Source: Verrucomicrobiia bacterium | GTDB taxonomy: Bacteria; Verrucomicrobiota; Verrucomicrobiia; Limisphaerales; JAEYXS01 | NCBI GenBank assembly: GCA_036405135.1 | Contig: DASWYF010000024.1 | Coordinates: forward strand, 1-64,000 | DNA: 64,000 nucleotides | Direction of reading: 5' to 3' | Shown: positions 3,815-10,964 of the stretch, piece after piece | How the letters are laid out: each line of letters starts with the position of its first letter | How positions within the stretch are numbered: the first letter of the stretch is position 1 | Notes under the pieces: model-generated | Seen by the model: only the letters and a program-made list of their open reading frames with translations | Told to the model about the DNA's origin: nothing | Databases searched by the model: none | Translations under genes and position numbers: made by a program

Positions 3815-6800
3815 ATGTCCACTCACCCGCCAGAGGAAGAGTATAAATATTGGGCGTTCATCAGCTACAGCCACGCCGATCAGGCATGGGCGGACTGGCT
3901 GCATAAATCGCTGGAAACCTATGGTGTGCCGAAGGTTCTGGTGGGTCGCACCTCCAAGGTAGGTGTCGTTCCCAAGCGGGCATACCCCATTTTCCGCGAT
4001 CGTGATGAACTGCCAAGTTCGGCTGACTTGGGCGAGAAGTTGACCCAAGCGCTGATGCAATCGCGCTTTCTTATCGTAGTCTGCTCCCCGCGCGCCGTGG
4101 CTTCCCGGTGGGTGAATGAGGAGATCAAGTCCTTCAAATCCATTGGTCGCGAAGACCGGGTGTTGTGTCTCATCGTCGATGGTGAACCTTACGCTTCCGA
4201 GCATCCTGAGTTGGGCCTGGAAGAGTGCTTCCCGGAACCGGTGCGTTACAAGGTGGATGCGAACAAGCGCATCACTGAGGAACGCACGGAACCGATCGCG
4301 GCGGATGCGCGACGCGGCAAGGATGGTCGTGAGAATGCGAAGTTGAAGTTGCTCGCCGGCATGTTCGGCGTGAACTTCAGCGACCTGAAGCAGCGTGATG
4401 CAGAGCGCCGCCATCGCCGCATGCAACTCGCGATGGTGGTCGTCATGCTGGTGATGTGCGGCTTCCTGGTGCTGGCTGGTCAGGCTATTTTGGCGAAGAA
4501 GGAAGCAGAAGGGAATCTCGTCCAGGCGAAGATTCAGGAACAACGCGCCAACGAGGAGCGGCAGAAGGCTGACCGTGCGCGTGAGATGGCGGAGAAGGCC
4601 CGTAACGACGCGGTGAACGCCCTGAAGAGCGAAGAAATCCAACGCAAAGCGGCAGAGGCGGCGAATGAAGCGGAAAAACTGGCCAAGAGTGAGGCTGAAA
4701 AGTCCGCCAAGCTCGCCACCGAGCGCCTTGCCGAAACCGAGATAGCGCGTCGCGAGGAAAAGAAACAGCGCGAGGCTGCAGACGCGGCCAAGCAGGCTGC
4801 GGAAGAAGCGGCGACAGTCGCCCAACGGGCGCGTGATGCTGCCCAGGAAAGCGAGCGCAAAGTTTCCCGCGCCTTGTCCGTTTCGTACTTCGTCGAAGCC
4901 AGCCGTCTCATCGGGGACAACCGCCAGCCGCAAGGCATGGCCTATCTCTCCCGCTCTCTGAATCTGGATGCAGACAATGCTTCGGCGCAGGCGCGGGTGT
5001 TGTCCCTGTTGGCGAACCAGAACTGGCCCTTGCCCCGCTATGGAATTTTGAAGCACGAAGCTCCGGTGCAGATGACCCGTTTCAGCCCGGATGCCAAGAA
5101 ATTGCTGACCGTGGCGGGCAATGATGTCCTGGTCTGGGATGCCAGCGGCAAAGAACCCAAATTGCTGAAAACGCTCAAGCATTCCAAGCCGGTGCGTTAC
5201 GCCGCTTACAGCCCGGACGGCAAGCTGTTCATCACCACCGCGGATGATGGCAAGGCGCAGCTCTGGAATGCGGACGATGAATCGAAGGTAGGCCCCGCTT
5301 TGGATCACAAAGATTGGGTATATGCGGCACAGTTCAGCGCGGACAGCAAACTGGTCATCACGGCCTCTCATGATAAGAGCGCACGTGTCTGGCACACAGC
5401 GACGGGGCAGCCGGCCACGGATTACTTACGGCAGAGCGGGTCCGTCCGCTGGGCATCTTTAAGTGGCGATGGTAAATTCGCGGTGACGACATCGGACAGC
5501 ACGGCACAGGTCTGGGACGTGGCGAAAGGCCAGCCCTATGGTCCCGCACTGACCCATGATGGCGGGGTCTATTATGCGGCTTTCAGCCCGGATGGGAAAT
5601 TCATCGCCACCGCATCTGGTGACAAGACCGCGAAGATATGGGGCATGAGCAACACCAACGCGGCCCAGGTGTTAAAGCATAACGACTGGGTAAATCAGGT
5701 GAAGTTCAGTCCTGACGGGCGCTATGCGGTGACCTGTTCAAGCGATGGGACCGCCAAAGTCTGGGAAGTGCCGACAGGCAAGCAACTCGGCCAGACGATC
5801 CAGCACGGGGCGGCCATCAACATGGTGGCCATCAGCCCCAACGTGCGGATGATCGCCACGGCGTCGGCAGACCGCACGGCCCGATTGTGGGATCTCAAGA
5901 CGGGCCTGCCGCTCAGCGAACCGATGGAACTGAACGGCGAGGTGAAGTGGGTGGATTTCAGTTACGACGGCCTTTGGCTCAGCGTTGCGGGTGCGGATGG
6001 TTCGGTGCGTGTTTGGAGCGCGGTTGACCGGCGGCCCCTTTCACTCGCGCTCAACCACGACACCTCGCTGTTTCAAGCCGTTTACAACCGGGCGGGTGAC
6101 CGTGTGCTGACGGTGGCTGATGACCGGACGGTGAGGGTTTGGGACACAGCCACGGGCCAGCTCATCGGCACGCCGATGAAGCACGATTATCGTGTGACCA
6201 CGGCGATCTTCAGTCCCGATGGGAAGTTTGTGGCAACGGCATCAGACCGTTATGCACGAGTTTGGAAATCGGATACAGGGGAAGTCGTGGGACAGCCGAT
6301 GATGCATGACCGTCAGGTGAACACGGTCGCTTTTCGGAATGACGGGGTGGTGCTTTTGACGGCATCCGAGGATGCCACGGCGAAACTTTGGAATGCGGCG
6401 GACGGAAAGCAGATCGGTGCCACCATGCAGCATGACCGGGCCATCCGCATGGCTTCGTTCAGCTCCGATGGCAAGCTGGTGCTGACGGCCTCGGCTGACA
6501 AGACGGCAAAAGTCTGGAATGCCGCCACCGGCCAGCCCAAGGGTGCTGTGTTCTCGCACAAAGGCGAGTTGCGGGCCGCAGTGTTCAGCCCTGATGGACG
6601 CATGGTGGCTACGGCCTCAGATGACCGTACGGCGCGGGTTTGGCTGACAGACAGCGGAGAAGCGCTTACGCCGGAGTTGCGGCATGATGCACCCGTGAAC
6701 GCGGTGGCTTTCAGCACCAAGCAACGGTTTGTGGTGACAGTCTCTGATGACCGCACAGCCCGTGTCTGGACCGCCGATGCAGGCAAGCCGGCAGCGGAAC

Positions 6801-8011
6801 CTTTGCGGCATGATTCGGAAGTCAAGGCCGTGAGTTTCAGCTCCAATGGATATTTCCTGGTCACCGTTTCGAAATCTAACGCCGCCATGGTATGGGACAC
6901 GGCCAGTTGGAAGCCCGTGGCAGAACCGCTTCAGCATGGCGGTCTGGTGCGTGATGCAGGATTCAGCCAGGATGGACGGTTCATCGTGACTGCTTCCGAG
7001 GACAAAACCGCGCGTCTCTGGCTAGTGGCCCTGCCGGGCACAGTGCCCGAGTGGTTCCGCCAGTTGACCGAAGGTGTGGCCGGTTATCAATTGGGTGAGG
7101 AAGGTGGTGCCAATGCATTGCCTGACTCGGCAGTCAGCATCGCAACCGTGCGGAACGCGATCAGTAATGCTCCAGCGGAAGATATGTTTGCCAACTGGGC
7201 CAAATGGTATCTGAGTGAACCAGTGGATCGCTCCGTCATGGCATTTGCCAAACTCCCGACCAGGGATTACCTCGCACAGCGGCTGGCAGCAGATGATGCC
7301 GCGATCGACAACGTGCTGCTCGTTCAGCCGAATAATGCACTGGCTTTGGCACGATATGGCCGCAACTTGAAAGATGCCGGTGCGGCGGACTATTTCACAA
7401 GCCTGGCCGTCAAGTATGAGCCGCAAAATCCCGAGGCGCTCTGGCTACGGGCGGGTGTCTTGCAGGCCGCCAACCAGTTCGAGCCGGCTTATGAACTGAT
7501 GAGCAAAGCCATGTCCGTTGACCCCAGGGCAACGGCTGTGATCGGCAAGGAGGGGGCCGAGATCGATCTGCGGAATCGTGATAATAATCTTTCCCGCGGT
7601 TGGTTGCCGAAAGGCTGGGTGGATCGCAACCGCACATTGGCCATGAGTGTCGAATACACCAAGCTCCCGGAAGGCCCCACGGCGGGCACAACTGCGCTCG
7701 GTATCAAGACCACCGGCAGTGTGACTGTGCAAAGCCAGCTTGCCGGCCCACGTTTTGTAGTTCGCAATCGAGAGCGGCAGACAGTCCGTATCTGGGCCAA
7801 ATCCGACAAAAATACTTCATTCCTCCTGTCGGCACGCTCTTTCCTTGACCCGAATGAACGGGCCTTTGATCTGAATATCCGTCCTACGGACAAGTGGCAG
7901 GAATTCAAAGTGACGGTGACACCGCAAAAGGATTTTGCCGGTGAAGTGCTGCTGCTCATCCCGGGAGATGGTTCCGTGCAGATTGGCGGCATCCAGGTGA
8001 CGAAGGAATAA
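3815..8011 (+). CDS. Giant TIR - transmembrane - coiled coil - 16x WD40 - TPR protein
   Basis: A 1398-aa multidomain protein. Residues 11-150 form a TIR domain (WAFISYSHAD, FRDRDELP, FLIVVCSPRAVASRWVNEEI). Glu102 or Glu103 after Trp99 sits where TIR NADases carry the catalytic glutamate. One membrane helix (about 205-226) follows, then a long Ala/Glu/Lys-rich coiled coil (227-355). Sixteen WD40 repeats of about 41 residues (about 408-1071) come next, most with H..V..A.FSPDG and TA.VW signatures, enough for two propellers. A TPR-like segment (about 1160-1235) and a C-terminal beta-sandwich resembling a carbohydrate-binding module complete it. Bacterial TIR proteins of this build are known and may act in signalling or defence. 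No partner gene stands next to it: maf with its terminator is upstream, the lipid transporter downstream. The domain order would put the propellers outside the cytoplasm if the TIR is inside. Confidence 0.85.
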   Translation: MSTHPPEEEYKYWAFISYSHADQAWADWLHKSLETYGVPKVLVGRTSKVGVVPKRAYPIFRDRDELPSSADLGEKLTQALMQSRFLIVVCSPRAVASRWVNEEIKSFKSIGREDRVLCLIVDGEPYASEHPELGLEECFPEPVRYKVDANKRITEERTEPIAADARRGKDGRENAKLKLLAGMFGVNFSDLKQRDAERRHRRMQLAMVVVMLVMCGFLVLAGQAILAKKEAEGNLVQAKIQEQRANEERQKADRAREMAEKARNDAVNALKSEEIQRKAAEAANEAEKLAKSEAEKSAKLATERLAETEIARREEKKQREAADAAKQAAEEAATVAQRARDAAQESERKVSRALSVSYFVEASRLIGDNRQPQGMAYLSRSLNLDADNASAQARVLSLLANQNWPLPRYGILKHEAPVQMTRFSPDAKKLLTVAGNDVLVWDASGKEPKLLKTLKHSKPVRYAAYSPDGKLFITTADDGKAQLWNADDESKVGPALDHKDWVYAAQFSADSKLVITASHDKSARVWHTATGQPATDYLRQSGSVRWASLSGDGKFAVTTSDSTAQVWDVAKGQPYGPALTHDGGVYYAAFSPDGKFIATASGDKTAKIWGMSNTNAAQVLKHNDWVNQVKFSPDGRYAVTCSSDGTAKVWEVPTGKQLGQTIQHGAAINMVAISPNVRMIATASADRTARLWDLKTGLPLSEPMELNGEVKWVDFSYDGLWLSVAGADGSVRVWSAVDRRPLSLALNHDTSLFQAVYNRAGDRVLTVADDRTVRVWDTATGQLIGTPMKHDYRVTTAIFSPDGKFVATASDRYARVWKSDTGEVVGQPMMHDRQVNTVAFRNDGVVLLTASEDATAKLWNAADGKQIGATMQHDRAIRMASFSSDGKLVLTASADKTAKVWNAATGQPKGAVFSHKGELRAAVFSPDGRMVATASDDRTARVWLTDSGEALTPELRHDAPVNAVAFSTKQRFVVTVSDDRTARVWTADAGKPAAEPLRHDSEVKAVSFSSNGYFLVTVSKSNAAMVWDTASWKPVAEPLQHGGLVRDAGFSQDGRFIVTASEDKTARLWLVALPGTVPEWFRQLTEGVAGYQLGEEGGANALPDSAVSIATVRNAISNAPAEDMFANWAKWYLSEPVDRSVMAFAKLPTRDYLAQRLAADDAAIDNVLLVQPNNALALARYGRNLKDAGAADYFTSLAVKYEPQNPEALWLRAGVLQAANQFEPAYELMSKAMSVDPRATAVIGKEGAEIDLRNRDNNLSRGWLPKGWVDRNRTLAMSVEYTKLPEGPTAGTTALGIKTTGSVTVQSQLAGPRFVVRNRERQTVRIWAKSDKNTSFLLSARSFLDPNERAFDLNIRPTDKWQEFKVTVTPQKDFAGEVLLLIPGDGSVQIGGIQVTKE

Positions 8012-8058: not shown

Positions 8059-8916
8059 GTGGTTCAGACGTCATCCACCCATTCCGACCGCAATTCCTGG
8101 TTCCGGCTGCCCGGACGGATGATCCGGCTGTATCTGGATCTGGTGGGCAGAGCAATCATCGGGTTCGCGGAGACAGCTCGCGGGTTGGGAGCCTTCGCGC
8201 TCATCACCTTGGGAACCACCCTTTCCAAGTTCGGCTTCGCCAAGGCTGTGATCCGTCCGCTGATCTTCAGCCAGATTTATGAATCGGGGCTTAAACTGCT
8301 TCCCATGATTGCGTTTCTGGGCGTAGCGTTGGGGTTTGTCATCATCGGACAGACGGTGGCGCTGCTGACCAGCGTGGGCGCACAGGGTTTCACGGGACCG
8401 GTGATGGTCGCCGTGGTCGTTCGCGAGCTGGGACCTCTGACTACGGCGCTGATTGTGCTGGCTCGCGTGGGCACCACTACGGTCATCGAACTGGGCATGT
8501 CCCGCGCCACGGGTGAGATCGAGGCATTGGAGGCTTTGGGCATCGATCCCATCCATCTGCTGGTGGTGCCGCGGGTGATCGGAAAGGCCGTAAGCATCTT
8601 TGCGCTGACGATCTATCTGATCCTCATCGCACTGATCAGCGGTTACGCCTTTGTGATGGTGCAGAACGTGCCGCTGACACCGGCCGCATATGTTGAGCAG
8701 CTTGCCATGGCGTTGACCTGGCAGGATTTTGTGCTGGTGGCTCTAAAGACACTTTCTTTCGGAGCGATCATCGCGGTCGTGACCTGTTATCAAGGATTGG
8801 CCCAGCCATTGCGACTTGAGCAAGTCGCCCCGGCGACCTCCCGCGCAGTGGTGGCGGGGACCATCGGTTGTGTCCTGATAGACGCCATTTTCATCACGCT
8901 ATTCTTGTTCCTCTAA
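8059..8916 (+). CDS. mlaE: MlaE-family ABC transporter permease
   Basis: A 285-aa integral membrane protein of the MlaE/YrbE family, the permease of MCE-type lipid transporters that move phospholipids between inner and outer membrane. Typical stretches are FLGVALGFVIIGQ, VVRELGPLTTALIVLARVG and ALGIDPIHLLVVPRVIG, the last two being the cytoplasmic coupling region. Four to five membrane helices follow in the usual pattern. The GTG at 8059 gives a 20-residue extension. The in-frame ATG at 8119 (MIRLYLDLVG) is an equally good start. The gene lies 3 bases upstream of the ATPase, and the MCE protein comes third, the standard Mla order. Confidence 0.9.
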   Translation: MVQTSSTHSDRNSWFRLPGRMIRLYLDLVGRAIIGFAETARGLGAFALITLGTTLSKFGFAKAVIRPLIFSQIYESGLKLLPMIAFLGVALGFVIIGQTVALLTSVGAQGFTGPVMVAVVVRELGPLTTALIVLARVGTTTVIELGMSRATGEIEALEALGIDPIHLLVVPRVIGKAVSIFALTIYLILIALISGYAFVMVQNVPLTPAAYVEQLAMALTWQDFVLVALKTLSFGAIIAVVTCYQGLAQPLRLEQVAPATSRAVVAGTIGCVLIDAIFITLFLFL

Positions 8917-8919
8917 GCC

Positions 8920-9717
8920 ATGGCTGACACCCTGCCCAAAAAAGAATCATCGGTCTGTGTGAAGCTGGAAGCAGCGGATCTGGGCCTGGAAGGCTGGGAT
9001 GACAAGCCGCTGTTGAAGGGGGTGAATTTGCAGGTGAACACCGGCGAATTCTGGGTGGCAGGGGGGATGCACCGGAGCGGCAAGAGCACGTTGCTGGCTT
9101 CCGTGGCCATGTTGCAGAAGCCTTTGGCCGGAAAAATCGAGGTCTTCGGTGTGGACCCCTGGAAAGTAGACGAGGCGAAATTGATGAAGCAACGCTTGCG
9201 CGTGGGGCTGGTCTTCGAGGCTGGCGCACGCTTGCTGCACAAGCTGTCTATCGCCGAAAATGTGGCGTTGCCACTGTGCTATCATCAAGACTGCCGGATG
9301 GAAGAGGCACAGGAACGGGTTGCCGAACTGCTCAAGTTCACGGGCGTGGAAACCATGGCCCGTCAACTGCCAGGTGGACTGACGCGGACCTACCGCCAAC
9401 GGGCCAACCTGGCACGCGCATTGGCCATGTCACCAGAGTTGCTCTTACTGGACAATCCGCTCGCGGGCATGGATTTCAGCGAGCGTGCCTGGTGGCGCGA
9501 GACGGTAACTGACTTGGGGCGAGGACATCCGATTGTCGGGAACCGTCCGATGACGATCATCGTGGTGACGAACCACTTGACCCCCTGGGTCGCAGAAGAT
9601 CGGCATTTTGCCTTGTTGCATGAGAACACATGGCGGCAGATCGGCGGAATGGCGGAATTGCACGCCAGCCGTGAAACGTCCCTGCGCGATGTGCTGGATG
9701 AAAAATTAAAAGACTGA
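8920..9717 (+). CDS. MlaF-like ABC ATPase with degenerate catalytic motifs
   Basis: A 265-aa ABC ATPase between the MlaE permease and the MCE protein, so by position the energiser of the lipid transporter. Walker A is intact (GMHRSGKST, Lys55). Other motifs depart from the canon. The Q-loop residue is Glu100 (LVFEAG). The signature reads LPGGL rather than LSGGQ. Walker B ends Asp178-Asn179 (LLLLDNP) in place of Asp-Glu. The switch region reads VVTNHL, so Asn218 or a shifted His219 replaces the usual His. The second ABC ATPase of the window, at 40778, has every motif intact, so this is not a sequencing trend. ATP binding is likely; hydrolysis may be slow or absent. The reading frame is clean and ends normally. 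Confidence 0.85.
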   Translation: MADTLPKKESSVCVKLEAADLGLEGWDDKPLLKGVNLQVNTGEFWVAGGMHRSGKSTLLASVAMLQKPLAGKIEVFGVDPWKVDEAKLMKQRLRVGLVFEAGARLLHKLSIAENVALPLCYHQDCRMEEAQERVAELLKFTGVETMARQLPGGLTRTYRQRANLARALAMSPELLLLDNPLAGMDFSERAWWRETVTDLGRGHPIVGNRPMTIIVVTNHLTPWVAEDRHFALLHENTWRQIGGMAELHASRETSLRDVLDEKLKD

Positions 9718-9725
9718 TCAATCTT

Positions 9726-10964
9726 ATGGCCTTGCAGGATCTGACACCCCGGCTGCGTACCCGGTTAAGCCGTCTCGAATGGACGGTGGGCCTCTTTGTG
9801 GCGTTGGCGACTTTGCTGTTGTTGACGGGCTTCGCCCTTTACTTCCGGAACACGGCGGAGAAGCGCGGCTGGTTCAAAACGAAGGTGACGTATTTCACGT
9901 TTGTGAGCTCAGCGGCGGGGCTAAAAGTGGGTGATCCCATCAAGCTCATGGGATTCGAAGCGGGCAATATCACTGCCATCCGCGCCCAGCCGCCGGAGGA
10001 TGCCTGGTTCAACGTCTATGTGGAATTTGAAGTCATGGAGCCGCACTTCGGCTATCTCTGGACGACCGGTTCCGTGGCAAAAGTGGCGGCTGACGGTTTT
10101 CTCGGAAATCGCTACATCGAAGTGACCAAAGGCACCGGCGGCACGGCGACTTACGAGCAGAAACAGGTGACCAACTGGTTTTTCGGGCAACGAGTCAAGA
10201 CCGTCGCCACCTCCATCTGGAATCCCAATGCACTCGGAAAAGACAAAGGCGCCTACGAACCCAGAAAACTGGACTCAAAGTATTGGCTGCCCGTGGAAGA
10301 GGCCCCCGCCATCAATGACCGGTTGGAAAAACTCGCCAAACAGGTGGAAGATGCGCTGCCGAACATCCTGAACCTGACGAACCAGCTCGCAGCCACGCTG
10401 AACAGCAGCAGCGCGGCGATGTCGAATGCGAACAACATCGTGGTGGATATCCGTCCCGTGGCCTCCAACATCGTCTTCATAACCGAAAACCTCAAAAATC
10501 CCAAGGGGTCTTTGGGTGAATGGCTGATCCCGACGAATATCAGCGGTGAACTGGAACTCACCATCACCGCCGCCAAGAACACGTTGACGAACGCCAATGT
10601 GGTCATGACGCAACTGGACAAGACATTGGTCACGGCGAACACCACCGTCGGTTCCGTGAACCAGATCGTGACAAATGCGAACGATCATGTGGCATTGCTG
10701 GTCTCAAACTTGAACGTGTCCCTGACACACCTTGCTTCCATCACCAGCAATCTGAACGCGCAGGTCCAGGCGAACACGAACATCCTCTCGGAAATATCCT
10801 CCACTGTGACGAATGCCGACATCATGCTGCAGGGACTGCGCAAACATTGGTTCCTGCGGGGTGCCTTCAAAGAAGACAAGCCGAAGGATGAGAACAGGAG
10901 CAAGGGAACCAATGCGCCCACACGCGGGCCCTTGATACCCAAGGTGCGGGAACAGTGGCAGTGA
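9726..10964 (+). CDS. MCE-domain (MlaD-like) lipid transport protein
   Basis: A 412-aa protein with one N-terminal membrane helix (about 22-43) and an MCE domain at about 52-135 (AAGLKVGDPIKLMGFEAGNI, VAADGFLGNRYIEVTKG). The remaining 250 residues are a long helical, Asn/Thr/Ser-rich region with heptad-like spacing of hydrophobics, as in larger MCE proteins where such helices build a periplasmic channel. With the MlaE permease and the ATPase it makes a three-component inner-membrane lipid transporter. It begins 8 bases after the ATPase and ends 3 bases before the convergent gene. Confidence 0.85.
   Translation: MALQDLTPRLRTRLSRLEWTVGLFVALATLLLLTGFALYFRNTAEKRGWFKTKVTYFTFVSSAAGLKVGDPIKLMGFEAGNITAIRAQPPEDAWFNVYVEFEVMEPHFGYLWTTGSVAKVAADGFLGNRYIEVTKGTGGTATYEQKQVTNWFFGQRVKTVATSIWNPNALGKDKGAYEPRKLDSKYWLPVEEAPAINDRLEKLAKQVEDALPNILNLTNQLAATLNSSSAAMSNANNIVVDIRPVASNIVFITENLKNPKGSLGEWLIPTNISGELELTITAAKNTLTNANVVMTQLDKTLVTANTTVGSVNQIVTNANDHVALLVSNLNVSLTHLASITSNLNAQVQANTNILSEISSTVTNADIMLQGLRKHWFLRGAFKEDKPKDENRSKGTNAPTRGPLIPKVREQWQ

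Follow-up and report, generated by a model that had tools for sequence, protein, structure and literature searches.

A putative single-pass TIR–WD40 membrane receptor in a Verrucomicrobiia bacterium and its scattered bacterial family

Results

Gene and domain layout

The window (the whole 64,000-nucleotide stretch that was analysed) contains a single open reading frame at positions 3815–8011 of the forward strand, which begins with ATG and encodes a protein of 1398 amino acids (Table 1). The initial annotation had described a TIR domain, a membrane helix, a coiled coil and sixteen WD40 blades on one chain, and this layout was confirmed by the open reading frame, domain scan, hydropathy and blade count. 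The genes upstream encode CHASE3-PAS, DUF1802 and Maf proteins. Downstream, mlaE-mlaF-mlaD (8059–10964) lie on the same strand, with mlaE starting 47 bases after the stop codon of the TIR gene.

Table 1 Features of the TIR–WD40 gene, with positions in the window.
Feature	Residues	Position	Strand	Basis
Complete gene, from the TIR to the CBM4-like end		3815..8011	+	ORF, same-length orthologues
TIR and conserved C-terminal helical extension	about 12–200	3848..4414	+	TIR_2, AlphaFold, SPARTA/SARM1 fold matches
W99-V-N-E-E103 with candidate catalytic Glu E103 (WxxxE)	99–103	4109..4123	+	TIR alignments, L6 alignment
Single transmembrane helix, positively charged N-flank	about 206–228	4430..4498	+	Hydropathy, flank charge
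Ala/Glu/Lys-rich coiled coil	about 229–349	4499..4861	+	Heptad-like period
Helical linker ahead of propellers	about 350–402	4862..5020	+	Helices in model
WD40 blades 1–8, proposed first eight-bladed propeller	409–734	5039..6016	+	Blade count, model, structure matches
WD40 blades 9–16, proposed second eight-bladed propeller	735–1069	6017..7021	+	ODA16 match
Helical TPR-like region	about 1071–1240	7025..7534	+	TPR_19 weak match, helices in model
Beta-rich CBM4-like end	about 1246–1398	7550..8008	+	1gui profile match, beta strands in model

TIR domain

The start of the protein matched the Pfam families TIR_2 (residues 15–133, E = 2.4e−17) and ThsB_TIR (E = 1.2e−10). An AlphaFold model of the TIR (pLDDT 89.5) matched the SPARTA TIR-APAZ (Z 14.5, 139 residues, 2.9 Å), SARM1 (Z 14.0, 126 residues, 2.4 Å) and AbTir (Z 12.7). 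It should be noted that scaffold TIRs, including MyD88 (Z 13.7) and those of Toll-like receptors (TLRs), match the model too, so that the fold by itself cannot tell an enzyme from a scaffold. The candidate catalytic glutamate which had been seen in the domain is indeed kept: E103 was present in all 30 TIRs of one alignment and in 31 of the 32 relatives in another, and W99 in 29 of the 30 aligned TIRs. Using a profile of the family's TIRs, E103 aligned with the glutamate in the W-C-L-M-E-L stretch of the plant L6 TIR, which we take to be the L6 catalytic residue. The near-invariance of E103 argues for an enzyme. With both the TIR fold and the conserved WxxxE glutamate of NADase-type TIRs, the domain is most likely a putative NAD+-cleaving enzyme. 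It is also the best-conserved part of the protein, at 62–71% identity to four distant orthologues, versus 39–45% for the WD40 part and 14–28% for the helix.

Membrane helix and coiled coil

The membrane helix that had been proposed was recovered by hydropathy as the only hydrophobic segment of the protein (mean 2.58 at residue 208, with the rest at ≤ 1.2). In all six orthologues 5–7 Lys and Arg residues precede the helix and 3–4 follow it, and the same bias was found in nearly all of 32 relatives. Cysteine makes up 0.40% of residues beyond the helix versus 1.65% in the TIRs. The charge bias and the depletion of cysteine point to a TIR inside the cytoplasm and propellers outside it.

The region following the helix (residues 229–350) is composed of 26% Ala, 20% Glu and 22% Lys and Arg, with no Pro, and in six of six orthologues it has a coiled-coil-like period of 3.48–3.52 residues; the coiled coil, initially put at about 130 residues, comes to about 120. 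The linker that follows shares 35–44% identity with orthologues from other genera, and the domain scan found no NTPase family in residues 229–402, where coiled coil and helices lie.

WD40 propellers

The protein matched Pfam WD40 with E = 3.2e−110. Repeat counting gave exactly 16 WD repeats, the number first reported, within residues 409–1069 (closing Trp at 441, 484 ... 1069; spacing about 42 residues). An HMM of the blades, run on five orthologues, counted 16 in all but one, which gave 17. Structure prediction, suggested earlier as a check of the propeller part, was carried out with AlphaFold on residues 346–1398 using a six-sequence alignment (pLDDT 83.5, pTM 0.56), and supports a large and ordered outer part. 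The best matches of the model were eight-bladed propellers, in line with blades that close into propellers: ODA16 (Z 26.8 and 25.5), the designed protein Tako8, TBLR1, Rsa4 and Fbw7. The ODA16 structure 5nnz (331 residues, Z 25.5) covers model residues 393–725, equal to protein residues 738–1070. This match spans blades 9–16 alone, so 8 + 8 is the likeliest split; the division into two propellers is tentative because the other four AlphaFold models were less confident (72–76).

The regularity of the repeats had been taken to suggest recent amplification, which can be ruled out. Blades share a mean protein identity of 35% (maximum 56%) and a mean DNA identity of 56%, no DNA tandem repeat or array was found, and the 16 blades are collinear across genomes from other families, with the unshifted blade register giving the best mean score against every orthologue. 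Recently amplified propellers have been defined by a median blade identity of over 60% (PMC9218822), a level which the mean found here does not reach. Judged by their sequences, the blades are old and divergent.

TPR-like region and C-terminal end

The TPRs and carbohydrate-binding-like end of the initial annotation stood in part. The TPR-like region is all-helical in the model, which agrees with the claim, but TPR_19 matched it only weakly (E = 0.001, below the curated cut-off). For the C-terminal end, Pfam CBM_4_9 was not significant on this sequence alone (E = 0.12), while a six-orthologue profile matched the CBM4 module of laminarinase 16A (1gui, E = 1.3e−4), suggesting that the end is CBM4-like. 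As the TPR and CBM assignments are weak, they allow only limited conclusions about the ligand. A 251-aa frame in another family (L062, G039:C33:34409–34882) contains the C-terminal beta domain (E = 7.5e−35) without WD40 or TIR.

Orthologues and wider family

Orthologues spanning the whole protein (1378–1404 aa) were found in the sister species, at 80% identity, and, at 41–45%, in four further families of the order. Of the 293 genomes of the order that were searched, 20 hold a close TIR, which in several cases lies within a frame of about 1400 aa, and this patchy occurrence suits an accessory gene. Scanning genome contigs, we found 34 loci, spread over Verrucomicrobiota, Proteobacteria and Acidobacteriota, the majority of which encode a TIR followed by one helix and then by WD40, TPR or an unmatched segment. 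WD40 forms the outer part in Nevskiaceae, Solimonas, Duganella and Rhizomicrobium, and TPR in Opitutales and Phenylobacterium. The 1398-aa protein is a member of a scattered bacterial family, which seems to have kept one TIR-helix module while exchanging its outer sensors. The best TIR tree has 8 changes of outer-part label against a possible minimum of 2, a count of sensor swaps which is soft, as the well-supported branches force only 1–2 changes per label. As regards mobile carriage, there was no phage match, and the 12 plasmid records matched were each at < 60% identity.

In two genomes, two TIR-helix genes lie close together (L015:6995–12928, in tandem, and L051:72–6549), which perhaps reflects local duplication or a paired system.

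Gene neighbourhood

The order of the TIR gene and its neighbours, the mla genes included, is kept in the sister species and only within the genus. No Mla gene was found near the orthologue loci of the four other families (L047–L050), and a link to Mla as a general feature was rejected. Outside the genus no conserved effector or regulator gene adjoins the TIR gene, and the Verrucomicrobiota orthologues there share no conserved neighbour. No full defence-system model was matched; the PADLOC and NCBIfam matches were weak and partial. On a contig other than that of the TIR–WD40 gene, the source genome encodes a Thoeris pair (L053, G000:C9, 403–2412), consisting of ThsA (PADLOC E = 6e−165) and then a ThsB TIR (6e−52).

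Discussion

Proposed mechanism and alternatives

We consider it probable, with moderate confidence, that the 1398-aa protein is a receptor crossing the membrane once, whose TIR is an enzyme on the cytoplasmic side and cleaves NAD+ when a ligand clusters the protein. The TIR would lie in the cytoplasm, the Ala-rich coiled coil would reach into the periplasm and pair chains, and the propellers and CBM-like end would bind a periplasmic ligand. Candidates for it are a glycan of the cell wall or outer membrane, a phage or toxin attacking the cell, or an envelope component that has been damaged. Binding would cluster or reorder the chains, bringing the TIRs together and switching on NAD+ cleavage, and the output may be abortive death through NAD+ depletion or a signal of the ADP-ribose type that acts on an effector coded elsewhere. 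If true, bacteria would be using NAD+ cleavage to signal across their envelope, through an arrangement of parts like that of animal Toll-like receptors.

The TIR could instead be a non-enzymatic assembly domain, with the protein serving as a scaffold in the membrane to which other TIR proteins are recruited once its outer part binds. Signal-dependent complex formation has been described as the commonest role of TIRs (PMC7075850), and the fold matches to TLR and MyD88 TIRs fit this; however, scaffolding alone would not need the nearly invariant WxxxE glutamate, and no partner TIR gene adjoins the gene in the source genome, so we regard a scaffold as unlikely. Alternatively, the protein might monitor the envelope as a housekeeping sensor coupled to the Mla lipid-transport genes that follow it. 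The closeness of mlaE on the same strand and the gene order shared with the sister species suggest this, but the lack of nearby Mla genes at the loci of the four other families and the patchy occurrence make it improbable.

Both halves might also lie in the cytoplasm near the membrane, and the propellers would then respond to a cue inside the cell, as in Apaf-1 or STAND-WD40 proteins. The blades do resemble those of Apaf-1, and WD40 and TPR domains are often cytoplasmic. As the protein has just one hydrophobic helix, this arrangement requires a re-entrant or non-inserted helix, and the charge bias and cysteine depletion point the opposite way; we give it very little weight.

Comparison with known systems

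Like the receptor we favour, Toll-like receptors cross the membrane once and join a sensor built of repeats to a TIR in the cytoplasm, and in both a single membrane helix lies between sensor and TIR. Here, however, the order of the chain is reversed (TIR first), WD40 propellers take the place of LRRs and the NADase-type glutamate is kept; neither the 25 listed families nor the scans of the other parts included an LRR. The likeness is one of layout and not of common ancestry of the whole. SARM1, AbTir and SPARTA have the TIR fold and WxxxE glutamate in common with this protein, and to our knowledge none of them combines these with a membrane helix and a double propeller on the outer side. The best-studied bacterial TIR immune enzymes are soluble and act inside the cell.

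Thoeris ThsB belongs to a signal-making TIR family, whose Pfam model ThsB_TIR matches this protein, whereas PADLOC gave no ThsB match to it at 1e−5. ThsB itself is small and is encoded next to ThsA, while the neighbours here are Maf and MlaE and no ThsA lies beside the gene. The group 6 bacterial TIR-TPR proteins (PMC7075850) share an N-terminal TIR, C-terminal repeats and a length of over 700 aa with this protein, but are mainly actinobacterial and differ in TIR motif (WDAVPG versus the FRDRDEL loop). Cyanobacterial TIR/caspase-STAND and STAND-WD40 operons (Dunin-Horkawicz 2014, as cited in PMC9218822) bring TIRs together with WD40 propellers in bacteria. As far as they are described there, these operons hold STAND ATPases, whereas our protein has a membrane helix and no NTPase, the domain scan finding no STAND NTPase between TIR and WD40; the WRAP propeller has near-identical blades, unlike the old, divergent ones here. 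Our search of open-access papers found none on this exact TIR-helix-WD40 layout. The family gives ready constructs for testing, such as the TIR alone and the propellers alone.

RyR-domain neighbours

Directly downstream of the TIR-TM-WD40 gene lies a gene for a membrane protein with a RyR domain in both Rhizomicrobium (L015:12933–14606) and Duganella (L018:9745–11559). Among the loci compared in other genomes it is the only conserved neighbour, shared by these two proteobacterial loci. In both proteins the RyR domain is C-terminal, and the L018 protein has a weak TrkA-N match. According to a 2026 preprint (PMC13232231), ADPR-based signals are degraded by RyR-domain proteins of phages, which makes the RyR-TIR pair worth a test; the neighbour is a possible reader of the TIR product. 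More broadly, and only tentatively, the family may be an independently arisen bacterial counterpart of the TLRs, in which membrane receptors with a constant cytoplasmic TIR NADase and exchangeable outer sensors (WD40, TPR or other) would convert a cue from the envelope or from outside the cell to a nucleotide signal. RyR-domain membrane proteins such as the L015 and L018 neighbours might then read this signal in some Proteobacteria.

The source genome itself encodes one RyR-domain protein (L054, G000:C22:30996–31259; E = 1e−32), a 790-aa frame in which the RyR domain lies near the N-terminus.
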